A DNA stretch of 13,831 bases, from contig JANXNO010000088.1 in NCBI GenBank assembly GCA_025354075.1, forward strand, positions 1-13,831, written 5' to 3'. Below the pieces are notes generated by a model that did no database searches, was not told where the DNA came from, and worked only from the letters and a program-made list of their open reading frames with translations. Shown here piece by piece: positions 1-13,749 of this stretch (positions are counted from its first letter, which is position 1; the number at the start of each line of letters is the position of its first letter). Both the position numbers and the translations under genes were made by a program. Source of the stretch: Burkholderiales bacterium. Lineage in GTDB: Bacteria; Pseudomonadota; Gammaproteobacteria; Burkholderiales; Casimicrobiaceae.

Positions 1-1104
1 GGCTGCGATGACAGCCGCCATCGCTAGATACGGATTTACATCAGCACCGGGGCAGCGCGTTTCGAGGCGCGTGGCCTTGGGCGAGCCAGCGATCACGCGG
101 AAGCTGGCCGTGCGGTTGTCCAGTCCCCAGGTCGGTTTGACCGGAGCCCAGAAGCCGTCTACCAGTCGCTTGTAACTGTTGATGGTCGGCCAGAACATCG
201 GCGCGAATTCCATCAGGCATGCGACTTGACCAGCGAGATAACTTTCGAACAGTTTGCTCATTGAGCGCGAGCTCTTGGCGTCGAAGAACAAATTCTTCTT
301 GCCGTCCGACAGACTCTGGTGAATGTGGCCACTGCAACCGGGATACTGCTGGCTCCACTTCGCCATGAAGCTCGGCATGATGCCGTAGCGCTTGCCGATT
401 TCGCGCGCACCCGTCTTGAATAGGATCGCTCGATCCGCCTGCTCCAGCGCGGCGCTGAAGGCGATGGCGACCTCATAAACGCCGGGCCCGGTCTCTGTAT
501 GCAAGCCTTCGATCGGTACGCCAAACGCCAACATATCGTCCATCAGCGCGTTGAAAAATTCGCGGTTGTCGGCCATGCGCAACAGTGAATAACCGAACAT
601 GCCAGGCGTTAATTTGGTGGGGTTGACGCCCTGCTTTTCAGCCCAGCTCTCTGGTGTTTCCTTAAAGTTGAACCACTCGAATTCCATGCCTGTCATCGGC
701 GCGAAGCCCATGTTCTCAGCGCGTTTCAATACACGTTTGAGCGTCTGCCGCGGACACACCGCATAGGGCGAGCCATCGGCGTTGATGAAATCGCTCAAGA
801 AGAACGAAACGTTGTTATCCCAGGGCACTTTGCGATGCGTGCCCAGATCAATCTGCGCCAGCGCATCCGGGAAGCCGTGCTGCCAGCCAGTGACTGTGGC
901 GTTGTCGTAGCAAAGGTCTTGCGAGTCCCAACCGAACACCACGTCGCAGAAACCGAATCCACTTTCGGTCGCGCCAAGAAATTTGTCCTTGTGCAAATAC
1001 TTACCACGCAAAATGCCATCAATGTCGCTCACTGCGACCTTGACTTTGTTCTCGCCAGATTTGCGGATGGCCGCAACAGCGGCATGTTCTTTGGTGCTTG
1101 CCAT
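1..1104 (-). CDS. Glutamine synthetase-family ligase, C-terminus cut by window edge
   Basis: ATP-dependent ligase of the glutamine synthetase family, joining the gamma-carboxyl of glutamate to ammonia or an amine. The open frame gives 368 residues with no stop and leaves the window at base 1; relatives are roughly 440-460 residues, so about 80 are missing. Visible family marks are DIDGILRGK near residues 27-35, the metal-binding EFE at 141-143, E204 and E211 in HTETGPGVYE, the SGHIHQS segment at 258-264, R313, R331 and R336, and NPYLAMAA at 357-364. The ATG at 1104 is preceded by AGGA and GGAG, the latter 5 nt away. It starts 57 bp after phnW on the same strand, so it is probably the last visible gene of the transport/transaminase operon. 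It could be a true glutamine synthetase, a gamma-glutamyl-polyamine (PuuA-like) or a gamma-glutamylmethylamide synthetase; the sequence alone does not separate these. The family is certain, the substrate is not. Confidence 0.93.
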   Translation of the reverse strand, partial: MASTKEHAAVAAIRKSGENKVKVAVSDIDGILRGKYLHKDKFLGATESGFGFCDVVFGWDSQDLCYDNATVTGWQHGFPDALAQIDLGTHRKVPWDNNVSFFLSDFINADGSPYAVCPRQTLKRVLKRAENMGFAPMTGMEFEWFNFKETPESWAEKQGVNPTKLTPGMFGYSLLRMADNREFFNALMDDMLAFGVPIEGLHTETGPGVYEVAIAFSAALEQADRAILFKTGAREIGKRYGIMPSFMAKWSQQYPGCSGHIHQSLSDGKKNLFFDAKSSRSMSKLFESYLAGQVACLMEFAPMFWPTINSYKRLVDGFWAPVKPTWGLDNRTASFRVIAGSPKATRLETRCPGADVNPYLAMAAVIAA

Positions 1105-1161: not shown

Positions 1162-2277
1162 TTAGGCGGGCGCGCCCGATGGTATGCCCAAATCCTTGAG
1201 CGCGAGTGCGACAGCATGCACCGCCTGCTCCATTTCGACTGGGCCAATCGCTCCAATGCATCCAACGCGGAAGGTTTCCACCTGCGTCAGCTTGCCCGGA
1301 TACAAAATGAAGCCGCGTGACTTCGCTGCATCGTAGAAGCGCTTGAACTCATAGTTCGGATGCGCGGGCGCGTGAAAGGTGACGATGATCGGTGCCTGGA
1401 TCGCGGGGTCGAGAAACGGCTTGAAGCCGAGCGCCGCCATGCCTTGTATTAGCGTCTCGCAGTTGCGCGTGTAACGAGCCAGCCGCGCGGGCTGACCGCC
1501 TTCTTCTTCAAACTGGGCGATGGCTTCGGCCAATGCAACGACTACGTGCGTGGGCGGTGTGAAACGCCACTGCCCTGTCTTTTCCATGTAGGCATGCTGA
1601 TCGTAGAGATCCATCGCCAGCGACTGACTTTGCCCGGCGCACTTGTCCAGAACCTCTTTGCGGATGAACACAAAGCCCATGCCGGGAACGCCTTCGAGGC
1701 ACTTTCCACTTGCTGCAATGAGTGCATCGAAACGCGTTTTTCGCGCATCGATTTCGAGCGCTGCGAACGAGCTCATCGCGTCAATGATGAGGCCCTTGTT
1801 GAACTCCGCGCATACATCAGCAACTTCCTGCATCGGATTCAGCACGCCAGCACCAGTCTCGCAATGAATCAGCACGACGTGCGTGATGCTGCTGTCCGCC
1901 GCGAGCTTTTCACCCAGAGCGGCGGGTGAAACTGCTTCATGGTCGGCGAATGGCATCAACGTGCAACGTCGTCCCATCAACGTCGAGAGCTTCGCCGCGC
2001 GCTTGCAATACGCGCCATTGTCGAGCACAAGAATGTGTCCACTGGTCGGCACCAGAGTTGCGACCGCTGCTTCGACGCTGAAGGTGCCGCTGCCTTGCAA
2101 CGGCACCACGATGTGCGTATCTTCCCCATCGACAATTTTTAGGAGACTGTGGCGTACGCTTGCAGTGACATTGTTGAACTCAACGTCCCATGAGCCCCAG
2201 TCACGCAGCATTGCGAGCTTGGTACGCAGGCTGGTCGTCAGCGGGCCGGGCGTGAGAAGAATGGAATCGTGTGACAT
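1162..2277 (-). CDS. phnW: 2-aminoethylphosphonate:pyruvate transaminase PhnW
   Basis: Cytoplasmic PLP enzyme (EC 2.6.1.37) that moves the amino group of AEP to pyruvate, giving phosphonoacetaldehyde and L-alanine; this is the first step of the locus. At 371 residues it has the usual length of the family. The N-terminus [10 protein letters not shown] is typical. The PLP-binding lysine is K192 in [12 protein letters not shown]166 in LIIDAMSSF is the aspartate expected to contact the pyridine nitrogen, and R337 in ETFRVG is the expected substrate-carboxylate arginine; the K/D spacing matches what is known for Salmonella PhnW. An AGGAGGT Shine-Dalgarno stands 10 nt before the ATG. The permease gene ends 24 bp upstream and the glutamine synthetase-like gene follows 57 bp downstream. 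No phnX lies nearby; the aldehyde produced is instead the substrate of PhnY, encoded on the opposite strand. Confidence 0.96.
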
Positions 2278-2301: not shown

Positions 2302-4020
2302 CTATCTCGTACCGCGCCATGCTTGCGTGCGACGATCCACGAGTCGTGCCAGCAGCATAAACACACCCGTCGCGACGGCAGATATTCCGGCGATCATCAC
2401 CGCCATCGCAGCCGCCGCGCCAATTTCGCCTGCTTCATCGAGATTGAGAATGGCGATGGATGCGACTTTGGTTTCAGGTGAATAAAGGAATACTACGGCT
2501 GAAATGGTAGTCATTGCATTGATGAAAAAGTAGCGTGCGATATCAACCAACGCAGGCGTACATATAGGCAGCGTCACACGCCAGAAGGTTTTGTACCAGG
2601 GCACTTTCAGCGACGCACTAACTGCCTCGAACTCGCCATCCAACGCCTTAAGCGCTGTTACTGCGGTCAAATGCCCTGTCGTGTAGAAGTGAACGATAGT
2701 GCACAGCGTGAGTAGCGCCGTGGTGTGATACAGCCAGTTCAACGGGTTTGACAGCGCGTTAAAGAAGAAGATGTAACCCAGGCCCAACACTAATCCGGGC
2801 ACCGCCATCGGCAGCATCGCGAGCATGCGAACCGGTGCGCGCAGCCAGCCTGCACCTTTGGTTTTTTCTAGAAGGTATGCCGAGAAAAAAACCAGCACTG
2901 TGCCAAAGAGTGCTGTACCTGACGCCATCTTGAGACTGTTCACGAAGCCTTCACCCACCTCGCCGTCCACCATACCAAGCACGTAGTGGCGAAGGCTAGG
3001 CGTCAAGTTGTACGGCCAGAAACTCGCGAATGATGCAAAGATCGCCATACCCAGCATCGCCAGCATCAACAGGGAAATCACTGTGCAAAACGCCGTCATC
3101 GCCATGTCGTAGCCGCGCGATGGAACGGGTCGGTGAGGCACTGCACGTGCGGTGAGCATGGCGGTTTGCTTTTTGCTCACATAGTGATCAACGGCAAAGG
3201 TCAGCACTGCGGGCAACAACAATAACAGCGCTACTACCGAACCTTTGGCAAAGTCCTGTTGGCCAATGACCAGTTTGAAAACGTCCGTTGCCAGCACATT
3301 GAAATTGCCGCCAATGACTTTGGGGATTCCGAAATCGGTCATCACCAGCGTGAAGGTCACCAGCCCCGCCGAGAGCAGGCCATACTTTGCACCCGGCACC
3401 GTAATGGTGAAAAACTTGCGCGAAGCCGTGGTACCCATCGCGGCAGCGGCTTCATACAGGCGGGCATCGGCGAGGCTCAACCCCGTGATCAGGATCATCA
3501 ACGCATGCGGGAATACCGAAAAACACTCGGCGACCACAATGCCTGGCGCACCATAAATTTGCGCGATGCCAACGCTCTGCATCGCCGCCTTCAGTACGCC
3601 CTGATTGCCAAACCAGTAGATGAGTGAAATCGCGGACAGCAACGACGGTGCCAGCAACGGAATGAGGCTGATGCCGCGGAACAGCGATTTGTGCGACATG
3701 CAGGAGCGCGTGATGGCGTAGGCGAAGCCGAATGCCAGGGGCAGCGTGATGACGGTGACCACAATCGACACCCACACGCTGTTCCACAAACTCGTTAGCA
3801 GCGCAGGCGTCTGCGCATAGGTAATGAAATTGGAGAAGCCCGCGAATTCACCCGCTTTTCCGAGGAGTGATTGCATGAGGATCGCGCCAAGCGGAAACGC
3901 CAGGAAAACCATCAGCGCAAGCGCAACCAGTGCAAGGCTCAAATGCGCGATGCGATCACTCCAGTGCGTTTTTTGTCGCACCGTAAGCGACGTCGACGAA
4001 TTCAGCACTGCGTCTATCAC
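2302..4020 (-). CDS. phnU: AEP ABC transporter permease, two fused permease domains
   Basis: Inner-membrane channel of the AEP importer. At 572 residues it holds two binding-protein-dependent permease domains in one chain, as in the alternative AEP transporter family (PhnU2-type, also called AepW); the Salmonella system uses separate PhnU and PhnV. Each half carries about six hydrophobic segments. The EAA loops that dock on the ATPase are at about 189-212 (YEAAAAMG, then TVPG) and 463-488 (EFEAVSASL, then TLP). The halves are joined near residues 280-305 by a polar linker. The start is GTG at 4020, whose G is the last base of the phnT stop (TAGTG), so translation is probably coupled; no better upstream start is possible without running deep into phnT. 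The neighbouring phnS, phnT and phnW set the substrate as AEP or a close analogue. The family is secure, the exact substrate range is inferred from context. Confidence 0.93.
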   Translation of the reverse strand: MIDAVLNSSTSLTVRQKTHWSDRIAHLSLALVALALMVFLAFPLGAILMQSLLGKAGEFAGFSNFITYAQTPALLTSLWNSVWVSIVVTVITLPLAFGFAYAITRSCMSHKSLFRGISLIPLLAPSLLSAISLIYWFGNQGVLKAAMQSVGIAQIYGAPGIVVAECFSVFPHALMILITGLSLADARLYEAAAAMGTTASRKFFTITVPGAKYGLLSAGLVTFTLVMTDFGIPKVIGGNFNVLATDVFKLVIGQQDFAKGSVVALLLLLPAVLTFAVDHYVSKKQTAMLTARAVPHRPVPSRGYDMAMTAFCTVISLLMLAMLGMAIFASFASFWPYNLTPSLRHYVLGMVDGEVGEGFVNSLKMASGTALFGTVLVFFSAYLLEKTKGAGWLRAPVRMLAMLPMAVPGLVLGLGYIFFFNALSNPLNWLYHTTALLTLCTIVHFYTTGHLTAVTALKALDGEFEAVSASLKVPWYKTFWRVTLPICTPALVDIARYFFINAMTTISAVVFLYSPETKVASIAILNLDEAGEIGAAAAMAVMIAGISAVATGVFMLLARLVDRRTQAWRGTR

Positions 4021-5111
4021 TAGAAAAGTCGCAGCCGTTCAGGCAGCAATTTCAGACGCAGCGGCGAGTCAACCACGAGCGATTGCTCGGTCAGAAAATT
4101 CAGCGACAGGTACACAGTGAGTTTGTGCGGCGCGAACGCGGGTGTGTTGACGCGCACGTGGCAGAACGAACCGAGAAACTCGATCTTCTCGATCACCGCG
4201 TCGAACACATGCGGATCGTCCGCCGCGAAGCTTGCCGCTCCGCCACCCACTGGACGCGCGAGCACGTCTTCCGGACGCAGATAGACTTTTACCGATTGCG
4301 TTGAGGAGTCTCGAGCAGGGACACGTGGGAGCGCAATTGAAAATGTGCCGACGGACAGTTGCTGACCATTCAGTGAGCCGGGCAGAACATTCACTTTTCC
4401 TACGAAATCCGCCACAAATGGTGACGCCGGTTCGCGATAAATGTCCATCGCACTGCCGACCTGCTCAATGAAACCATGGTTCATCACCACAATGCGATCA
4501 GCCAGCGACAGTGCTTCTTCCTGATCGTGGGTCACCATGATGGTGGTGACACCAAGCTTCTGCTGCAGCGCGCGAATCTCCTGGCGCAGCCGCACACGTT
4601 CAAGTGCATCCAGCGCGGACAGTGGCTCATCGAGCAGCAACAAACCCGGCGAGGTCGCGAGCGCACGCGCCAAGGCTATGCGTTGTTGCTGCCCGCCAGA
4701 CAACTGGCTCGGATACTTGGCATCGCTGCCAGGCAGGCCAACCAGTTTCAACAGCTCGGTAACGCGGTTTTTGATCGCACCTCTTTCAACTCGACGATTG
4801 ACCAATCCGTACGCCACGTTATCAGCAACACTCAGATTGGGGAATAGTGCGTAGCTCTGGAAAACAATGCCGTAGTCCCGCTCGGCTGGGGGGCGCCGAG
4901 TGATGTCGTTGCCAGCCTGAAAGATTGACCCGGAGGTTGGCGTTTCGAGTCCTGCGATGATGCGCAATAGCGTTGTTTTGCCACAGCCCGACGGTCCGAG
5001 GAAGCAGACAAACTCGCCCTTCGCAATTTCGAGATTGATGTGTGAGAGCGCGGTAAACGCTCCGAACTCTTTTTTGACGTTACGCAGCTGTAGATAGGGC
5101 TGATCGGTCAT
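4020..5111 (-). CDS. phnT: AEP ABC transporter ATP-binding protein
   Basis: Cytoplasmic ATPase that powers AEP import. Of its 363 residues, about 1-240 form the ABC domain and the rest a TOBE-type domain, as in spermidine/iron/phosphonate importers. Walker A is GPSGCGKTT at 39-47, the Q-loop glutamine is Q85 in VFQSYALFP, the signature LSGGQ is at 137-141, Walker B LLLLDE is at 157-162, and the switch histidine is H195 in VTHDQEEA. The ATG at 5111 gives the standard N-terminus, but no good Shine-Dalgarno precedes it. The gene lies 72 bp after phnS, with a stem-loop between them, and overlaps the permease start by one base. The length is normal and all catalytic motifs are intact. Confidence 0.95.
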   Translation of the reverse strand: MTDQPYLQLRNVKKEFGAFTALSHINLEIAKGEFVCFLGPSGCGKTTLLRIIAGLETPTSGSIFQAGNDITRRPPAERDYGIVFQSYALFPNLSVADNVAYGLVNRRVERGAIKNRVTELLKLVGLPGSDAKYPSQLSGGQQQRIALARALATSPGLLLLDEPLSALDALERVRLRQEIRALQQKLGVTTIMVTHDQEEALSLADRIVVMNHGFIEQVGSAMDIYREPASPFVADFVGKVNVLPGSLNGQQLSVGTFSIALPRVPARDSSTQSVKVYLRPEDVLARPVGGGAASFAADDPHVFDAVIEKIEFLGSFCHVRVNTPAFAPHKLTVYLSLNFLTEQSLVVDSPLRLKLLPERLRLF

Positions 5112-5183: not shown

Positions 5184-6221
5184 CTATTTCTTCTCGGATT
5201 TCGAGTCGTAGCGTTTCGTCCATTCAGCCAAAATGCGGTCGCGGTTTTCGGCTGCCCAACTAAAGTCCATTTTCACTAGCCGTGCTTCGTAATCTGCTGG
5301 CACATTGGCCAGCGGAGCCGCAATACCTGGCACGGCCGTAATGGCGAAATTTTTGCCATAGAGGGCCATCGCATCTTTACTGGAGGCCCAATCAGCCAGC
5401 CTTTTTACGGCGTCAAGTTTCTTGGTGCCTTTATGAATTGCAAAGGCTTCAAGATCCCAGCCGAGTCCCTCTTTCGGGAACACCAGATCAATCGGCGCTC
5501 CTTTAGCTTTGTTGCTATTGGCACGATATTCAAAGGAGATGCCGACCACAAATTCGCCGGAGCCAGCCATATTGCAGGGCTTCGAACCGGAGTGCGTGTA
5601 CTGTGCAATGTTCTCGTGCAAACCATCCATGAACTGCCACCCGCCGCCTTTGCCGGCATCGTCGCCAAACAGCGCGAGCCACGCAGTAACGTCGAAGAAG
5701 CCGGTGCCGCTGGACGCCGGATTCGGCATTACGATCTGTCCCTTGTAGGCTGGCTTGGTGAGGTCTTTCCAGGTTTCGGGCTTGGGGATACCCTTCTTGG
5801 CGGCCTCCACCGTATTGAAGCAAACTGTCGCCCCCCAAACGTCCATGCCGAACCATGCAGGTGGACTTTTCTTGTCGCGGTACTGCGCCTGAATGGCTGC
5901 AAGACCCGACGGAGCGTAGGGCTCCAGCATGCCTTGCTTATCCAGCACAGCAAGACTGGACGCAGCAACGCCCATCACCGCGTCAGCCTGTGGGTTGCCT
6001 TTTTCGGCGAGCAGCTTGGCGGTGATCACGCCCGTGGAATCACGCACCCATTTGATTTCGATATCCGGATAAGCTTTGTTAAAGCCTTCCTGATACGCCT
6101 TCAGTTGATCGGTTTCAAGGGCTGTGTAAACAAGAACTTGTGTTTTCTGGGCGAGTGCAACCGATGAAATCAGCGCAACGGTCGCGAGTGCAGACCAGCG
6201 ATACAGCGAAGACAGACGCAT
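5184..6221 (-). CDS. phnS: Periplasmic AEP-binding protein of the ABC importer
   Basis: Extracytoplasmic substrate-binding protein (345 residues) that captures AEP and delivers it to the permease. A Sec signal peptide is clear: MRLSSLYRWS, a hydrophobic stretch at about 10-20, then cleavage after VALA (residues 21-24), so the mature protein starts near Q25. The mature part has the type II periplasmic fold family look of iron/phosphonate binding proteins (QVLVYTALETDQ, later WKDLTKPAYKGQIVMPNP, ending in ILAEWTKRYDSK). The ATG at 6221 has AAAGGA about 8 nt upstream. It is the first gene of the leftward operon, directly behind the Pho-box-like repeat. It resembles the PhnS2 (AepX) type that pairs with a fused permease; a different phosphonate as main ligand cannot be excluded from sequence. 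Confidence 0.93.
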   Translation of the reverse strand: MRLSSLYRWSALATVALISSVALAQKTQVLVYTALETDQLKAYQEGFNKAYPDIEIKWVRDSTGVITAKLLAEKGNPQADAVMGVAASSLAVLDKQGMLEPYAPSGLAAIQAQYRDKKSPPAWFGMDVWGATVCFNTVEAAKKGIPKPETWKDLTKPAYKGQIVMPNPASSGTGFFDVTAWLALFGDDAGKGGGWQFMDGLHENIAQYTHSGSKPCNMAGSGEFVVGISFEYRANSNKAKGAPIDLVFPKEGLGWDLEAFAIHKGTKKLDAVKRLADWASSKDAMALYGKNFAITAVPGIAAPLANVPADYEARLVKMDFSWAAENRDRILAEWTKRYDSKSEKK

Positions 6222-6281: not shown

Positions 6282-6340
6282 GGTTTGGAGCGGTGTATCC
6301 GACTCTCTTCTTGATGACCCCCTGCGTCGCCTCAATTGCG

Positions 6341-6369
6341 TTTTAACGCTCTGTATAACTCATTGTCAA
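6341..6369 (-). promoter_or_regulatory. Possible sigma70 promoter reading toward phnS
   Basis: TTGACA (6369-6364) is followed after 17 bp by TTAAAA (6346-6341) on the minus strand. The -35 is perfect and the -10 poor (3 of 6). It would give a leader of about 110 nt before phnS and lies between the Pho-like box and the palindromic operator. It may be a basal promoter, or chance in an AT-rich stretch. Confidence 0.25.
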
Positions 6370-6378
6370 TTGTTTTTT

Positions 6379-6398
6379 GTAGATTGTTGACAATCTAC
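6379..6398. promoter_or_regulatory. Perfect 20-bp palindrome, likely PhnR operator
   Basis: GTAGATTGTTGACAATCTAC consists of two perfect 9-bp arms (GTAGATTGT / ACAATCTAC) around TG. Its centre, ATTGTTGACAAT, resembles sites bound by FCD-type GntR regulators. It sits 24 bp before the chosen phnR start and between the two divergent gene sets, so PhnR is the obvious binder. A weaker related element, ATTGTCAAT, lies at 6362-6370. Identity as the PhnR site is inferred from position and symmetry. Confidence 0.65.
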
Positions 6399-6416
6399 GC
6401 GTGCAGGCATCAAAAT
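6387..6416 (+). promoter_or_regulatory. Candidate phnR promoter, overlapping the operator
   Basis: TTGACA at 6387-6392 is a perfect -35. CAAAAT at 6411-6416, 18 bp later, matches the -10 at 4 of 6 positions. The -35 lies inside the 20-bp palindrome, so a bound regulator would block it and PhnR would control itself. Transcription would begin about 7 bp after the -10, that is at or next to the ATG at 6423. An alternative -10 (TATAAC, 6354-6359) lies upstream but has no recognisable -35. Confidence 0.35.
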
Positions 6417-6422
6417 AGCGCT

Positions 6423-7154
6423 ATGAGTTTAAGTCTGGCCTCCCCAAACGCAACGATTGCACTATTGCAGTCCAGTTCGCTGACCACTGTGGTGCAGCAG
6501 GACATTGAGCGCGCAATCCTGGCCGGCGAATACGCGCCCGGCAGCAAGCTGGTTGAGGCTACGCTTGCAGAAAAAATGGGCGTGTCGCGTGGGCCAGTAC
6601 GTGAGGCTTTCCGTATGCTTGAAGAAGCGGGGCTGGTACGCAACGAAAAAAATCGTGGCGTGTTCGTGCGCGACATACCGATGGACGAAGCAGTCGAAAT
6701 ATTTGACCTGCGCGCAGTGATGGATGAACTGGTGGGGCGTCAGCTTGCGGTCAACATCACTCCCGTTCAGCTCAGGGAAATCAAGGCACTGGTTGAAGCC
6801 ATGGAGCGCGCAGTGAAGGCCAACGACACGCGCAATTACCATTTGCTCAATCTCAAATTTCATGATCGCCTCGTGGAGATGGCAGGCAATCGCAAGCTTA
6901 CTTCGATCTATCGAAAACTGATTAAAGAGCTGGCACTGTTTCGGCGCCTCAACCTAGCGGACGGCTGGCTGTTGCCGATCTCTGCGGGCGAGCATCGGCA
7001 GATTGTGAAGGCGATTGCGTCGGGCAATGCTGAAGCGGCAGGCAAAGCGATGTTCGACCACGTGATGGAGAGCAAAGTGCGAACCATCGAGAACGATCTG
7101 CACCGACAAACCCGTGCTGCTACTAGCCGCTCCACTGAACATCGGAGCGCGTAG
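6423..7154 (+). CDS. phnR: GntR-family (FCD) regulator of phosphonate use
   Basis: DNA-binding regulator (243 residues) of the FadR/FCD branch of GntR, of the kind associated with phosphonate operons in Burkholderiales. An N-terminal winged helix spans about residues 20-85 (IERAILAGEYAPGSKL, LAEKMGVSRGPVREAFRMLEEAGLV, GVFVRDI). The FCD ligand domain follows, with its likely metal-site residues in FDLRAVMDEL, the histidine of LKFHDRL, EHRQIVKAI and MFDHV. The frame is open back to 6336, but an earlier start would run through the palindrome and promoter and add a tail unlike the family; MSLSLAS at 6423 is therefore preferred. No Shine-Dalgarno precedes it. It is divergent from phnS and 48 bp before phnA, so it probably heads the catabolic operon. 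The likely effector is AEP or a pathway intermediate. Family secure, start fairly secure, effector unknown. Confidence 0.9.
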   Translation: MSLSLASPNATIALLQSSSLTTVVQQDIERAILAGEYAPGSKLVEATLAEKMGVSRGPVREAFRMLEEAGLVRNEKNRGVFVRDIPMDEAVEIFDLRAVMDELVGRQLAVNITPVQLREIKALVEAMERAVKANDTRNYHLLNLKFHDRLVEMAGNRKLTSIYRKLIKELALFRRLNLADGWLLPISAGEHRQIVKAIASGNAEAAGKAMFDHVMESKVRTIENDLHRQTRAATSRSTEHRSA

Positions 7155-7172: not shown

Positions 7173-8432
<1,260 letters not shown>

Positions 8433-8450: not shown

Positions 8451-9908
8451 ATGATCGAACAATTCATTCTCGACAATCAACTGAACGCAATGCGGCTCAT
8501 CGGTCGCAAAGTCGGCGCTGATCGCCCGTCTGATCGAGCCATTTCGGTGCATAACCCGTACACGGAAAAACAGATCGGAACCGTGCCGAAAGCGACAATC
8601 GATGAGGTGCGCGAAACCTACGCCACGATGCATGCCTATCGGCCAAAACTCACCCGATTTGAACGCGCCGCGATTCTCAATCGTGCAGCAGATATCGCCA
8701 AACGCCGTCAAGATGACGTCGCAAAGCTGATCTCTGCGGAAGCGGGCCTTTGCATGAAGGACGCGATCTATGAGGCCGGACGTGTCAGCGATGTGTTTCT
8801 GTTCGGTGCTAACGAGGTCCTCAAAGACGACGGCCAGATTTTCAGTTGTGATCTGACTCATCACGGCAAGAAGCGACGCGTCTTCACGCAACGCTCGCCG
8901 CTGCTGGGTGTGATCACCGCAATCACGCCGTTCAATCACCCGATGAATCAGGTAGCGCACAAGGTAGTGCCCAGCGTGGCGACCAACAACCGCATGGTAC
9001 TGAAGCCATCCGAGAAAGTGCCGTTCTCTGCGATCCTGCTTGCGGACTTTCTACATGAAGCGGGTCTACCTCCCGAGATGCTCAGCGTGATCACAGGCGA
9101 CCCGCGCGAGATTGCGGATGAATTGCTGACCAATGAACATGTTGATCTGATTACCTTCACAGGTGGCGTATCGATTGGCAAATACATCGCGAGCAAGGCG
9201 GGGTATCGACGCATGGTGCTGGAACTGGGTGGCAACGATCCCATCATCGTCATGGAGGACGCTGACATTAACGAGGCCTCGACGCTGGCAGTACAAGGCT
9301 CCTACAAGAATTCCGGTCAGCGCTGCACTGCGATCAAGCGCATGCTGGTGCATGAATCGGTTGCCAATGAATTCGTTGAACAGGTCTTGGAGAAAACCCG
9401 TGCCTGGTCCTACGGCGATCCGTCCGATCCAACGCTGGACATGGGTACTGTCATTGACGAGCACGCAGCGCAGCTGTTCGAAACGCGCGTCAACGAAGCG
9501 ATTTCACAAGGGGCGAAACTGCTGGCGGGTAACGTACGCCGTGGGGCGTTGTATTCGCCGACGTTGCTTGATAGGGTGCAACCCGAGATGACGGTTGCGA
9601 TGCAGGAAACCTTCGGGCCGGTGTCGCCGATTATTCGCTTCAAAAATATTGACGACGCAATTCGTATTTCCAACGGTACTGCATACGGGCTTTCGAGTGC
9701 AGTGTGCACCAATCGCCTCGACTACATCACGCGGTTCGTCAGTGAGCTTGAAGTTGGCACGGTGAACGTACGTGAAGTGCCTGGTTATCGTCTTGAATTG
9801 ACCCCATTCGGCGGCATCAAGGACTCTGGCCTTGGCTACAAGGAAGGTGTACAGGAAGCCATCAAGAGTTTCACCAATATCAAGACCTATTCGCTGCCTT
9901 GGGTCTAG
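8451..9908 (+). CDS. phnY: Phosphonoacetaldehyde dehydrogenase PhnY
   Basis: NAD-dependent aldehyde dehydrogenase (EC 1.2.1.-) that oxidises phosphonoacetaldehyde from PhnW to phosphonoacetate for PhnA. At 485 residues it has the standard family length. Catalytic features seen are N162 in TPFNHPMNQ, K185 and E188 in LKPSEK for the cofactor, FTGGVSIGK at 236-244, the general base E258 in LELGGND, and the nucleophile C292 in GQRCTAIKR. The ATG at 8451 follows GAGG by 5 nt. It is 18 bp after phnA and 13 bp before the PhnZ-like gene. The phnW/phnA/phnY trio matches the described S. meliloti-type route, which leaves little doubt about the substrate. It should not be confused with the PhnY* 2-oxoglutarate dioxygenase, a different protein. 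Confidence 0.95.
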   Translation: MIEQFILDNQLNAMRLIGRKVGADRPSDRAISVHNPYTEKQIGTVPKATIDEVRETYATMHAYRPKLTRFERAAILNRAADIAKRRQDDVAKLISAEAGLCMKDAIYEAGRVSDVFLFGANEVLKDDGQIFSCDLTHHGKKRRVFTQRSPLLGVITAITPFNHPMNQVAHKVVPSVATNNRMVLKPSEKVPFSAILLADFLHEAGLPPEMLSVITGDPREIADELLTNEHVDLITFTGGVSIGKYIASKAGYRRMVLELGGNDPIIVMEDADINEASTLAVQGSYKNSGQRCTAIKRMLVHESVANEFVEQVLEKTRAWSYGDPSDPTLDMGTVIDEHAAQLFETRVNEAISQGAKLLAGNVRRGALYSPTLLDRVQPEMTVAMQETFGPVSPIIRFKNIDDAIRISNGTAYGLSSAVCTNRLDYITRFVSELEVGTVNVREVPGYRLELTPFGGIKDSGLGYKEGVQEAIKSFTNIKTYSLPWV

Positions 9909-9921
9909 CAGGGTTCTTCGC

Positions 9922-10476
9922 ATGTTGACACTTACGGACATTGAATATCTGTTTGCAAAAAACGGAGACGAACAGTACAGCGGTGAACCCGTCACGCAAC
10001 TGGAACACGCGTTACAAACTGCGTATTTCGCTGAGCGCGATGGAGCCGACGATGAGCTGATCACCGCAGCACTGCTGCACGATCTCGGGCATCTGCTACA
10101 TGATCTTGGCGAGACGCCTTCCCTGAGTGGCGTTGACGATGTTCACCAGTACCGTTCGCTGCCCTTTCTGCGAGGGCTTTTCAGTGATGAGGTGTTGAAC
10201 GCGATCAAATTTCACGTCGATGCGAAGCGATATCTTTGCGCGGTGCAGCCCGAATATCACCTCCGACTTTCCGAGGATTCGAAGCGGAGCCTGGTGCTTC
10301 AAGGTGGCTTATTCGCCGAGGCCGCAGCTGCGGAATTCATCCGGCAGAGGGGTGCGGAGCGCGCGGTTCGGTTGCGGCTGTGGGATGACGCTGCGAAGGA
10401 CGCGCATCTCGAAACGCCGTCGCTCGGGCACTTCATGCAAAGCGCTTCGCGTTGCGCGTTGAAAGCTCAGACTTAG
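9922..10476 (+). CDS. phnZ: PhnZ-like HD-domain mixed-valent diiron oxygenase
   Basis: HD-domain protein (184 residues) of the phosphonate-operon family. Characterised members use two irons and O2 to cleave the C-P bond of alpha-hydroxylated aminoethylphosphonates: PhnZ makes glycine plus phosphate, and TmpB makes glycine betaine plus phosphate. Expected metal ligands are present: H29 in QLEHA, H53-D54 and H57 in LLHDLGH, H75 in VDDVHQYR, H98 in KFHVDAKRYL, and D155 or D156 in LWDDAAKDAH. The lid tyrosine and glutamate typical of PhnZ are visible as Y19 and E22 (QYSGEP). An upstream in-frame start exists within phnY, but ATG 9922 with AGGG 8 nt before it gives the family length. It follows phnY by 13 bp and its stop overlaps the EamA start (TAGTG). 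No PhnY*/TmpA hydroxylase is encoded in the window, so the true substrate is open. Confidence 0.88.
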   Translation: MLTLTDIEYLFAKNGDEQYSGEPVTQLEHALQTAYFAERDGADDELITAALLHDLGHLLHDLGETPSLSGVDDVHQYRSLPFLRGLFSDEVLNAIKFHVDAKRYLCAVQPEYHLRLSEDSKRSLVLQGGLFAEAAAAEFIRQRGAERAVRLRLWDDAAKDAHLETPSLGHFMQSASRCALKAQT

Positions 10477-11318
10477 TGACGCTGACCTGGCCGATTGTTG
10501 TCATTGTGCTCTTCGGCGCATTGCTGCATGCAAGCTGGAACGTAGTGGTTAAATCGAGCAGCGACAAGGCGCTGGACATGGCGCTCATTCATTTGCTCGG
10601 CTGCTTCATTGCGCTGCCGCTTGTTTTGGTCGTCGGATGGCCGCCGTTGGTGGCGTGGCCGTACATCCTCTCGTCAGTCGTCATCCACATTGCGTACTAC
10701 GTGGCGCTGACCAATGCCTACAAGCATGGTGACATGGGCCACACCTATCCGCTGATGCGCGGTGTCGCGCCGATGCTGGTGGCAGTGTCCGCGTTCACTA
10801 CGCTGGGCGAACACTTGTCGCCGCTTGCGTGGGCCGGGGTCACGGGCGTTTGTTGTGGCGTACTGGTACTAGGACTCAGCCGACAAGCGCTCGACAATCG
10901 TCGCGCGACCTTGTTTGCTTTAGCGAATGCCGTTGTGATTGCTGTCTACACCGTCATTGATGCGCTAGGTGCGCGCGCGTCCGGCAATGCCGTGCAGTAT
11001 GTTGTCGCGCTGTTTGTACTCGACGGCTGGCCGTTCGCGCTCATGGTGCTCGCACGACGCGGGCGTGCAGCGTGGCCCTATGCGAGAGCGAGGTGGCCCA
11101 TAGCTGCCGGTGGTGCGCTGGCGTCACTGGGTTCTTACGGCATCGCGCTGTGGGCAATGACGCGGGCACCCGTTGCCAGCGTTGCGGCGTTGCGTGAGAC
11201 TTCCGTGCTCTTTGCGGCGCTGCTCGGAAGCTGGTTTTTGAAAGAGAAATTCACGCCACGTCGCGCACTGGGTACGTGCGTCATCGTTGGCGGCGTAATG
11301 GCATTGCGATTGGGTTGA
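10476..11318 (+). CDS. EamA/DMT-family membrane protein of the phosphonate operon
   Basis: Inner-membrane protein (280 residues) of the drug/metabolite transporter fold, with about ten hydrophobic segments in two EamA repeats. Repeat one is around residues 5-135 (GALLHASWNVVVKSSSD, then HTYPLMRGVAPMLVA). Repeat two is around 143-278 (VYTVIDALGARAS, then VAALRETSVLFAALLGSWFLKE). It resembles the family annotated as a phosphonate utilization-associated putative membrane protein. The start chosen is GTG 10476, which overlaps the previous stop by one base (TAGTG); a TTG 24 bp upstream is possible but less likely. It ends 19 bp before the FAD/GcvT gene. It may export a by-product such as alanine, or move a phosphonate or amine. 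The substrate is unknown. Confidence 0.86.
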   Translation: MTLTWPIVVIVLFGALLHASWNVVVKSSSDKALDMALIHLLGCFIALPLVLVVGWPPLVAWPYILSSVVIHIAYYVALTNAYKHGDMGHTYPLMRGVAPMLVAVSAFTTLGEHLSPLAWAGVTGVCCGVLVLGLSRQALDNRRATLFALANAVVIAVYTVIDALGARASGNAVQYVVALFVLDGWPFALMVLARRGRAAWPYARARWPIAAGGALASLGSYGIALWAMTRAPVASVAALRETSVLFAALLGSWFLKEKFTPRRALGTCVIVGGVMALRLG

Positions 11319-11337: not shown

Positions 11338-13749
11338 ATGAGTCTTCCATCACACGCAGAAATCGTCATCGTTGGTGGCGGTATTGCAGGTTGTTCAACG
11401 GCGTATCACCTCGCAAAATTGGGCAAACGCGATGTGCTGCTGCTGGAGCAGGGCAAGCTGACCTGCGGCACGACATGGCATGCCGCAGGACTCATCGGGC
11501 AAATGCGACCCAACCGCAACATAACGCGCATGAGCAAGTACGGTATCGAGCTTTACTCCACGCTCGAAGCGGAAACAGGGCTGGCTACCGGCTGGAAGCA
11601 GTGCGGCAGCGTCAACGTGGCGAGTACGCCAGAGCGTATGAAAGTGCTGCGAAAGCAGGTCGCCTTGGCGAAAAGTTTCGGCGTTGACGTCGAGGAAATT
11701 TATCCGCAACAAGCCGGCGAACTTTATCCTGTGATGCGCACCGATGACTTGCAGGGCGCGATCTGGATTCCCGGTGATGGCAAAGCGAATCCCGCAGATC
11801 TTGCAATGTCATTGGCGAAGGGCGCGCGCAATGGTGGCGTGCGCATCGTTGAAGACCTTGAGGTAACAGGCGTCATCATCGAAAAGGGCCGCGCGGTCGG
11901 CGTGCGAACGGCGCAGGGCGATGTGCGTTGTGAAGTCGTGGTGAACTGCGGCGGACAGTGGGCGCGGCAGTTCGGTCGTCGTGCAGGTGTGAATGTGCCG
12001 CTCTATTCGGCGGAACATTTCTACGTGGTCACTGGCAAGATTGACGGCGTGCATCCGATGCTTCCGGTGATGCGCGATCCCGATGGTTTCATTTATTACA
12101 AAGAGGAAGTCGGCGGCCTCGTGATGGGTGGGTTCGAGCCGAAGGCGAAACCCTGGAAAGTGGATCCGATTCCGTCCAGCTTTCAGTTTGAATTGCTGGG
12201 GGAGGATTGGGATCAGTTTGAACCCCTGATGACCAACGCGATCCATCGCACGCCGTGTCTGGAAACGGCCGAAATCAAGATGTTGCTCAACGGGCCGGAG
12301 AGCTTCACACCGGATGGTAATTTCATCCTGGGCGAAGCGCCGGAATTACGTAATTACTTCGTTTGTGCCGGGTTCAATTCAGCGGGTATTGCCAACTCTG
12401 GTGGTGCAGGTCGCCTCATCGCGGAATGGATTGTCGGCGGCGAAGCGAGCAGCGATTTGTGGGACGTGGATATTCGTCGCTTTGGCAGCTTTACCGGTAA
12501 CCGCAAAGCATTGTTTGATCGCACTGCCGAGACGCTAGGCCTGCATTACGCAATGCGCTGGCCGCGACAGGAGCTTGAGACGGCAAGGCCGCTGCGCACA
12601 TCGCCGCTGTACGATTTGCTGGCTGCGAATAACGCGGAATTCGGCAGCAAAAATGGCTGGGAGCGAGCAAACTATTTCAAATCTCCGGGTACTACTTGCC
12701 CTGAGTTTGGTCTGGACAAGCCGGGCTGGTTGCCGTGGATGATTGAAGAGCAATGCGCAACGCGCGAAACGGTTGCACTCTATGACCGAACCTCATTCTC
12801 GAAGCTGCTCCTGCAAGGGCGAGATGCGCTCAATGCGCTGCAACGCCTATGCGCCAACGAGATTGATATTCCGGTCAACAAGATGGTCTACACCGCGATG
12901 CTCAACGCACGCGGCGGCTTCGAGAGCGATCTAACCATCATCCGCCTCGTCGATGAAAAATTCCTGATCATCACCGGCTCTGCGCAGACGGTGCGCGACG
13001 CAGACTGGATCAACCGCAATATCACGCCAATCGAACACGCAATACTCACTGACGTGACGGGACAGTTCAGCGTGCTCTCGGTGATGGGGCCAAAAGCGCG
13101 AGCATTGATGGCTCGCGTTAGTCCGGACGACCTCTCGCCCGAAGCGCTCAAGTTTTCGTGGACGAAGGAAATTGACGTCGGCTTTGCACGCGTGCGCGCA
13201 GCGCGCATGAGCTATGTCGGCGGGCCGGGGTTTGAGCTTTATATTCCGGTTGAAATGGCGCGTCATGTGTATCTGGCGCTTCACGAGGCAGGGCGCGATC
13301 TCGGGCTTCGCGATGCAGGCTACTACGCGCTGGACGCCCTGCGAATCGAGCAGGGCCGACGTGCCTGGGGTGCGGAGCTTGGCCCTGATGAAACGCCGTG
13401 GGAAGCGGGCCTGAGCTACGCCGTGAAGCTCGATAAGCCGTCGGAATTCATTGGCAAATCGGCGCTACTGAAGTCACAGTCCCAACCGCTGCGCAAGAAA
13501 CTGGTGACTCTCGTTCTCGACTCGGCAGAGGCTTATGTCTGGGGCGGCGAAGCCATCGTTCTCGACGGTGAAACGGTGGGCGAAATTTCCTCCGTTGGCT
13601 GGAGTCCACTCGCCAACGCTTGCGTCGGCCTCGGGTATGTGCGCGGCGCGGGAGCCAACGCTATGCACGACGGCACGACCGCTCAAATTGAGCTTTGGGG
13701 TGAGGCGGTCGCCGTCAAGCTTTATGATCACTGGCCTCAGCGTCAATAG
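11338..13749 (+). CDS. FAD/GcvT amine oxidoreductase (dimethylglycine/sarcosine dehydrogenase type)
   Basis: Two-module flavoenzyme of 803 residues. The N-terminal half (about 8-365) is a DAO-type FAD domain, with the dinucleotide motif IVGGGIAG at 11-18 and H48 in TTWHAAGL, the histidine that carries covalent FAD in dimethylglycine and sarcosine dehydrogenases. A short FAD-oxidoreductase middle region (about 370-425) follows, then a GcvT folate-binding domain (about 428-690; MLNARGGFESDLTI with D531, the aspartate of the tetrahydrofolate site) and a GcvT C-terminal barrel (about 700-800). Members oxidise N-methyl amines and pass the methyl carbon to tetrahydrofolate as 5,10-methylene-THF. 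A GAGGG site lies 6 nt before the ATG. It is cotranscribed with the PhnZ-like and EamA genes. Substrates to consider are sarcosine, dimethylglycine or an N-methylated AEP. Family sure, substrate unknown. Confidence 0.93.
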   Translation: MSLPSHAEIVIVGGGIAGCSTAYHLAKLGKRDVLLLEQGKLTCGTTWHAAGLIGQMRPNRNITRMSKYGIELYSTLEAETGLATGWKQCGSVNVASTPERMKVLRKQVALAKSFGVDVEEIYPQQAGELYPVMRTDDLQGAIWIPGDGKANPADLAMSLAKGARNGGVRIVEDLEVTGVIIEKGRAVGVRTAQGDVRCEVVVNCGGQWARQFGRRAGVNVPLYSAEHFYVVTGKIDGVHPMLPVMRDPDGFIYYKEEVGGLVMGGFEPKAKPWKVDPIPSSFQFELLGEDWDQFEPLMTNAIHRTPCLETAEIKMLLNGPESFTPDGNFILGEAPELRNYFVCAGFNSAGIANSGGAGRLIAEWIVGGEASSDLWDVDIRRFGSFTGNRKALFDRTAETLGLHYAMRWPRQELETARPLRTSPLYDLLAANNAEFGSKNGWERANYFKSPGTTCPEFGLDKPGWLPWMIEEQCATRETVALYDRTSFSKLLLQGRDALNALQRLCANEIDIPVNKMVYTAMLNARGGFESDLTIIRLVDEKFLIITGSAQTVRDADWINRNITPIEHAILTDVTGQFSVLSVMGPKARALMARVSPDDLSPEALKFSWTKEIDVGFARVRAARMSYVGGPGFELYIPVEMARHVYLALHEAGRDLGLRDAGYYALDALRIEQGRRAWGAELGPDETPWEAGLSYAVKLDKPSEFIGKSALLKSQSQPLRKKLVTLVLDSAEAYVWGGEAIVLDGETVGEISSVGWSPLANACVGLGYVRGAGANAMHDGTTAQIELWGEAVAVKLYDHWPQRQ

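Follow-up and report, generated by a model that had tools for sequence, protein, structure and literature searches.

The stretch of DNA analysed here (the window) is a contig of 13,831 nucleotides from a Burkholderiales bacterium of the family Casimicrobiaceae (JANXNO010000088.1 of assembly GCA_025354075.1), one of the 689 contigs of the source genome. It carries a gene for an 803-residue flavoenzyme, here called DAO-GcvT, in which a FAD-binding DAO module is joined to a GcvT-type folate module. The surrounding genes are those of a pathway for the breakdown of 2-aminoethylphosphonate (AEP): a glutamine-synthetase-like gene, phnW and the phnU2-T2-S2 transporter on the minus strand, and phnR, phnA, phnY, an HD-type oxygenase gene (Phn-HD), an EamA gene and the DAO-GcvT gene itself on the plus strand. 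With the NCBIfam models PhnW, PhnU2, PhnT2, PhnS2, phnR_burk, PhnA, PhnY and Phn-HD all over cut-off, the profile matches identify this as a genuine AEP cluster. The start of DAO-GcvT lies 19 nt beyond the EamA stop, and GAGG precedes its ATG. We propose, from its sequence and surroundings, that DAO-GcvT is probably a folate-linked N-demethylase of N-methyl-2-aminoethylphosphonate (M1AEP) that would feed its product to PhnW.

Pfam models, each over cut-off, divide the protein into DAO (residues 9-364), FAO_M (368-422), GCV_T (424-694) and GCV_T_C (720-795), which is the domain order of enzymes of the dimethylglycine dehydrogenase (DMGDH), sarcosine dehydrogenase (SARDH) and MabO type. When solved structures were searched with phmmer, rat DMGDH (4pab) matched over residues 6-769 at 3.7e-141 and the dimethylglycine oxidase (DMGO) of Arthrobacter (1pj5) over residues 6-791 at 5.3e-100. 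Four residues, H48, H227, Y253 and D531, are each present in 99 of 99 aligned sequences of the clade to which the window protein belongs (clade I, window included). H48 occupies the position of the histidine that binds FAD covalently; H227 and Y253 align with DMGO His225 and Tyr259 (positions counted on the alignment), the His/Tyr catalytic dyad being taken from the available part of PMC5082570; and D531 aligns with DMGO Asp552, a position at which the otherwise matching chain 3gsi has Ala. The window protein retains, then, the parts known for N-methyl oxidation and folate capture in DMGO and DMGDH, and the domain matches, structure alignments and conservation bear out the first-pass annotation, which had recognised a FAD/GcvT protein of this length with H48 and D531. 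Residue 50 is Ala in the window protein and DMGDH, and Pro in DMGO. An Ala/Pro and Ile/Val difference, for which residue numbers are not given, is tentatively connected with oxygen reactivity in the same part of PMC5082570, so that Ala50 hints weakly at a dehydrogenase. The loop at 345-351 reads GFNSAGI in the window protein, as against GFG-YGI, one residue shorter, in DMGDH, and the pattern GFNSxGI is that of clade I.

In the reaction we envisage, FAD held covalently by His48 and the His227/Tyr253 dyad would oxidise the N-methyl group of M1AEP, the one-carbon intermediate would pass through an internal cavity, as described for DMGO and DMGDH, to the GcvT module, and tetrahydrofolate (THF) at Asp531 would take it up to give AEP and 5,10-methylene-THF. 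Electrons would go to a carrier or quinone, and not mainly to oxygen, and AEP would proceed to PhnW, PhnY and PhnA.

Genome contigs yielded 169 confirmed relatives, of which the best 80 were assessed for linkage to phn genes; by record title most of these belong to Burkholderiales, the named ones including Polaromonas, Ramlibacter and Rhodoferax. Loci were mapped with probes comprising the window proteins, PhnX, PbfA and others, and antisense artefacts of open reading frame (ORF) calling (clusters c17, c21, c75) were ignored. After exclusion of the 24 loci with less than 5 kb upstream, phn genes were found, by identity thresholds of our own choosing, in 51 of 56 loci, and an EamA gene lay immediately upstream of DAO-GcvT in 48 of the 72 loci in which 900 bases or more were available on that side. 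Among 64 genomes of the family, a clade I copy (at least 56% identity, fragments counted) and PhnA occurred together in 29, DAO-GcvT only in 5, PhnA only in 7 and neither in 23 (Fisher p 7e-7, indicative only, since the genomes are related). Across 399 genomes of the order, PhnW was present in 10 of the 11 with a copy of at least 52% identity, in 39 of the 388 others, and in none of the nine with only copies at 42-49%. Eighteen genomes showed no PhnW in the stretch first examined; PhnW is nevertheless over cut-off in 16 of them, fragmentary in another and absent from the last. PhnW was found in 26 of the 29 genomes examined for it, which fits a demethylase, since this needs PhnW downstream and an enzyme forming phosphonoacetaldehyde (PAA) does not, but is no proof, because plain AEP also needs PhnW. 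DAO-GcvT is missing from four close loci (L203, L204, L207, L208) that retain the cluster, EamA and an IclR gene at the flank, as would fit an accessory gene that widens the range of substrates.

The association extends to Alphaproteobacteria, where clade I copies lie with or near phnW-phnA-phnY on plasmids of S. meliloti, Phyllobacterium, Aminobacter, Ensifer and Shinella, in gene orders that differ from that of the window and usually with a DeoR regulator close by; in Sinorhizobium meliloti 1021 the copy (NC_003078.1, match at 1060549-1062921) is 2.9 kb from phnW. Both phnA and phnY were seen in eight of nine plasmid regions with a copy of at least 55% identity, the ninth (L246) ending before the place at which its relative MSH1 has phnW, and in three further genomes of a phylum survey (L247-L249) clade I is near phnW-A-Y too. 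A neighbourhood with PhnW/A/Y or PhnX is conserved, then, across lineages of two proteobacterial classes. In a tree built by a 'quick' method, with long branches warned of elsewhere in it, linked copies fall into one clade (32 rows, SH-aLRT 99, 26 of 32 linked, the window row being labelled linked by hand as its fetched locus was short), and a second linked clade lies apart from it. None of the 17 fetched loci of relatives at 44-51% identity is phn-linked. Chance placement beside phn genes is ruled out by the linkage in two classes and by these unlinked paralogues. The first-pass annotation had placed the gene in an AEP operon and suggested surveying its co-occurrence with phnW; the setting stands, and phn genes accompany clade I and not its relatives at 44-51%. 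As a separate observation, DAO-GcvT relatives at 47-51% adjoin genes for a choline/ethanolamine kinase or a phosphotransferase, so annotated in L271 and L272 and recognised by eye in L190 and L191; L271 and L272 also have betaine/choline ABC transporters. In Aminobacter plasmids, a dihydrofolate-reductase-family gene adjoins clade I DAO-GcvT (L276, 8606-9265, minus strand; L246; L268).

Several observations weigh against M1AEP demethylation as the function. The gene is accessory, because many AEP clusters lack it: DAO-GcvT was not detected in 39 of the 49 PhnW genomes of the order survey, which scored two candidates per genome. Five of the 56 assessable loci (L051, L055, L075, L091, L109) have no phn genes, L189 and L132, of the same clade, are likewise not beside them, and the evidence is slight for three of the 51 links (L058 and L084 by PhnY alone, L111 by PhnS2/U2 at ~55%); nor are linkage counts within a clade independent locus by locus. 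The GFNSxGI loop recurs in an Arthrobacter copy linked to folD and purU and in the unlinked paralogues L193 and L197, so it is no marker of phosphonate use. Lys149, His303, Arg410 and Arg674 stand out as clade-specific basic residues, and none was tied to phosphonate binding in a sequence comparison made without coordinates relative to the flavin. Finally, N-methylated 1-hydroxy-AEP (N-methyl-HAEP) and dimethyl-AEP are almost as plausible substrates as M1AEP.

Table 1. Features of the window, from the DAO-GcvT gene back to the opposite contig end
Feature	Position	Strand	Remarks
DAO-GcvT flavoenzyme, 803 aa	11338..13749	+	FAD/DAO module ~1-367, FAO_M linker 368-422, GcvT folate module 424-795; H48, H227, Y253, D531
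EamA-type permease	10452..11318	+	TIGR03340 phn_DUF6, 284.0 bits against a cut-off of 288.15 (just under)
Phn-HD oxygenase	9922..10476	+	TIGR03276 over cut-off; start probably the in-frame Met within listed ORF 9832-10476
PhnY phosphonoacetaldehyde dehydrogenase	8451..9908	+	TIGR03250 over cut-off
PhnA phosphonoacetate hydrolase	7203..8432	+	TIGR02335 over cut-off
PhnR GntR/FCD regulator	6336..7154	+	TIGR03338 (phnR_burk) over cut-off
PhnS2 AEP-binding protein	5184..6221	-	TIGR03261 over cut-off
PhnT2 ABC ATPase	4020..5111	-	TIGR03265 over cut-off
PhnU2 permease	2302..4020	-	TIGR03262 over cut-off
PhnW 2-AEP:pyruvate transaminase	1162..2277	-	NF010006, 565.9 against 296 bits; proposed user of the demethylated product
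Glutamine-synthetase-like protein	1..1104	-	Truncated by contig end; dispensable for the proposed reaction

Some companions of these genes recur elsewhere. The glutamine-synthetase-like (GS) gene behind phnW in the window is the opening member of a set of GS, iron-type alcohol dehydrogenase (Fe-ADH), Peptidase_C26 (PuuD-like) and, in several cases, aldehyde dehydrogenase (ALDH) genes that recurs in L071, L186, L187, L188 and L055; the set suggests a gamma-glutamyl pathway for some amino alcohol, sharing the AEP locus. Between phnY and HD/EamA, AEP clusters repeatedly carry a Na/Pi cotransporter-PhoU protein (e.g. L118, L122, L126, L133, L062, L092), and a Nudix hydrolase lies 3' of DAO-GcvT in the near relatives L147, L148, L149 and L151, a place that the window stops short of.

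The position of DAO-GcvT in the pathway can be approached through the exchange of its neighbours. Of the 51 linked loci, 42 have PhnA/Y to deal with phosphonoacetaldehyde and seven have PhnX, none having both and two neither; HD is present in 30 and PbfA in five, 21 having no HD match. In a wider set of 85 clade I loci, drawn from two sources with repeats included, HD occurs in 47 and PbfA in 14, and the two never together. Since DAO-GcvT is kept when PhnYA gives way to PhnX or HD to PbfA, its substrate probably lies upstream of phosphonoacetaldehyde, and its indifference to both choices argues that phosphonoacetaldehyde is probably not this substrate, nor, in general, a product of HD. HD and PbfA exclude each other as if both used (R)-1-hydroxy-AEP ((R)-HAEP), which hints at a PhnZ-like role on HAEP for the HD oxygenase of TIGR03276, and their interchange while DAO-GcvT stays makes it more likely that HD serves (R)-HAEP. 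These patterns bear on a second function raised in the first-pass annotation, in which DAO-GcvT oxidises the sarcosine or dimethylglycine freed by Phn-HD from hydroxylated, methylated AEP, after cleavage of the PhnZ/TmpB type. Phn-HD is indeed found in the window as in the 30 linked loci, and TmpB and PhnZ yield glycine betaine and glycine according to the available part of PMC10574752. The idea is nevertheless weakened by the 21 linked loci without HD, by the rhizobial loci L242-L245, in which tblastn found no HD gene, and by the interchange with PbfA, and we consider it improbable.

Demethylation of M1AEP has also to be set against the view that DAO-GcvT is a general dehydrogenase of dimethylglycine, sarcosine or methylamino acids whose place in head-group utilisation loci is incidental. 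The nearest solved structures are DMGDH and DMGO, copies such as L075 and L109 are away from phn genes, and the GS, Fe-ADH, C26 and ALDH module accompanies several of the loci. Against this view stand the linkage, which spans two classes and differing gene orders, and the PhnW over cut-off in 16 of the 18 genomes whose examined stretch had lacked it; a general dehydrogenase is therefore unlikely.

A further comparison concerns the single-module oxidases PbfB, PbfC and PbfD. According to the main text of PMC10590968, N-methyl-AEP is frequent in nature and is not a PhnW substrate, PbfC and PbfD act on M1AEP, a proven substrate, by oxidation of its ethyl side and yield PAA and methylamine, the FAD of the PbfB/C/D group is non-covalent, and TIGR03364 is PbfD1; a word search of that text found no mention of GcvT or folate, in agreement with the first-pass annotation, which described the known N-methyl-AEP oxidases as single-module DAO proteins, in contrast to one that brings its own folate module. 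We equate TIGR03329 provisionally with PbfB. The window protein scores 65.2 bits against TIGR03364, for which the cut-off is 285.1, TIGR03329 is not among the 25 families listed of the 43 matched, and it has two modules where a PbfD or PbfB protein should have a single DAO module with the model over cut-off. In Azospirillum B510 a single DAO ORF beside phnW and PbfA, taken as PbfC by its genomic place, has Arg and Ser at the places of His48 and His227 and no GcvT; the window protein, with GcvT module and His48, departs from a single-module PbfC with no covalent FAD.

Oxidases with a single module, of the TIGR03329 or TIGR03364 type, occur in nine of 21 PhnW/PhnA loci without DAO-GcvT (from six of the seven PhnA-only family genomes, 14 of the 39 PhnW-only order-survey genomes, and L202; L206 spans only 3.6 kb), and a search of DAO-GcvT loci gave no strong match to these two profiles. 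This mutual exclusion is suggestive only, because the lineages differ. Seven of the nine were scanned against NCBIfam, TIGR03329 being over cut-off in three and below it in L217, which the end of its locus truncates, and TIGR03364 over cut-off in three; the calls for L210 and L213 rest on a custom profile. L073 has an extra single-module DAO protein near PhnW, like a D-amino-acid dehydrogenase and under cut-off. Should DAO-GcvT act as PbfC and PbfD do, converting M1AEP from its ethyl side to phosphonoacetaldehyde and methylamine with a vestigial GcvT module, the shared cluster setting, accessory pattern and proven substrate would be explained; but His48, His227 and Asp531 in 99 of 99 sequences, the lack of the two histidines in the ORF taken as PbfC, the low TIGR03364 score and the presence of PhnW in 26 of 29 genomes (though expected for plain AEP anyway) make such chemistry highly unlikely. 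The best-supported reading is the one that the first-pass annotation put first, in which N-methyl-AEP would be converted to AEP for PhnW with the methyl group saved on THF: in its favour are linkage in two classes, PhnW in 10 of 11 and 16 of 18 genomes, and the retention of both the residues and the GcvT module.

Five Burkholderiales loci (L137, L138, L139, L140, L143) pair a GbcA-like Rieske oxygenase with an adjacent DAO-GcvT protein of a second group (clade II, 37-43% identical to the window protein). L137 and L139 also have phnW, phnA and phnY, L143 has a PhnSTU-like transporter at 40-52% identity, and L138 and L140 are short loci with no phn gene visible; in four of the five genomes (G004, G024, G048 and G057, not G002) a copy of clade I lies elsewhere. 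The Rieske and clade II pair is also found in Shinella, Sinorhizobium RAC02 and Aminobacter, the rhizobial Rieske cases coming from plasmid records. On pAM01 of Aminobacter MSH1 the order is Rieske oxygenase, VanB-type reductase, clade II, DeoR, a gene of the dihydrofolate reductase family, clade I, other genes, LysR, Na/Pi, phnW, phnA, phnY, DMT permease and phnSTU, with the Rieske gene, the reductase, both DAO-GcvTs and phnWAY-STU lying within ~27 kb (clades assigned by identity, 43.6% and 57.2%, and by where the tree places the relative L246). A single clade (97/94) unites seven phn-type Rieske proteins in a tree that leaves out L138 for its short length, and three proteins of the neighbouring clade scored 463-491 bits, likewise under the GbcA cut-off of 670. 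The phn-type clade lies next to or near clade II, often beside phn genes (L137-L140, L143, L243, L244, L246, L276), and is a candidate trimethyl-AEP demethylase. A Rieske search of the 399 genomes of the order gave 12 with a match at 1e-80, all at 35-38% identity; one of 319 genomes of the phylum, run without a positive control, gave none at 1e-110. The clade II loop, GFTS-GI, is shorter and DMGDH-like, as against GFNSxGI in clade I, and the two clades might divide tertiary from secondary amines.

These associations suggest a cascade in which the Rieske enzyme would convert trimethyl- to dimethyl-AEP, clade II dimethyl- to monomethyl-AEP, and clade I monomethyl-AEP to AEP. We give an even chance to a complete oxidative N-demethylation of trimethyl-AEP in Proteobacteria, mirroring glycine betaine breakdown, feeding PhnW, keeping up to two carbons as methylene-THF, and separate from TmpAB and PbfB/C/D; the window holds the last step only.

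Among titles and opening lines of abstracts in the openly accessible literature searched, we found no description of a folate-linked enzyme in AEP clusters, nor of a trimethyl-AEP cascade of a Rieske oxygenase and two DAO-GcvTs, and the available parts of PMC10574752, PMC12366243, PMC8154272 and PMC12478193 likewise describe no such folate-linked enzyme. The architecture is known and its context is real and widely conserved; what would be new, relative to that literature, is the specific function of DAO-GcvT in AEP clusters. Known enzymes release the methyl group of M1AEP as methylamine, and a folate-linked route would make one-carbon units of it and leave the nitrogen on AEP for PhnW. If this is true, the expected carbon and nitrogen yield of phosphonate use changes in soil, freshwater and rhizosphere bacteria, and the Rieske-linked extension, if also true, adds trimethyl-AEP use besides TmpAB. 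The clade I copy in S. meliloti 1021, the strain in which AEP breakdown was reportedly characterised in 2011, to go by the title of the paper, which PMC8154272 cites, makes the idea directly testable.

Among known systems, the succession of GbcA, dimethylglycine demethylation and sarcosine demethylation in glycine betaine catabolism matches, by order of reaction types, the Rieske, clade II and clade I genes near phn; the phn-linked Rieske proteins differ from GbcA in forming their own clade and in scores of 353-371 bits (five proteins) against its cut-off. Several relatives are auto-named 4-methylaminobutanoate oxidase, and an Arthrobacter copy (L273, 40.6% identity), which we take to be a MabO-type oxidase demethylating 4-methylaminobutyrate, shares the architecture, the GFNSxGI loop and the positions of His48, His227 and Tyr253; it differs in being flanked by folD and purU, with a succinate-semialdehyde dehydrogenase (SSADH) gene near, and by no phn genes. 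With PbfB/C/D the window protein shares the role of an accessory FAD/DAO enzyme of AEP clusters, and M1AEP, shown as a substrate for them, would be its own; PbfC and PbfD, however, yield PAA and methylamine, and the B510 ORF taken as PbfC is a single module without His48 and His227. The closest likeness in structure is to rat and human DMGDH and Arthrobacter DMGO, with homology over nearly the whole length, the order DAO, FAO_M and GcvT, His48, the His/Tyr dyad and, as in DMGO, the Asp of the folate module, and the difference from both is that the window gene sits in an AEP-breakdown operon.

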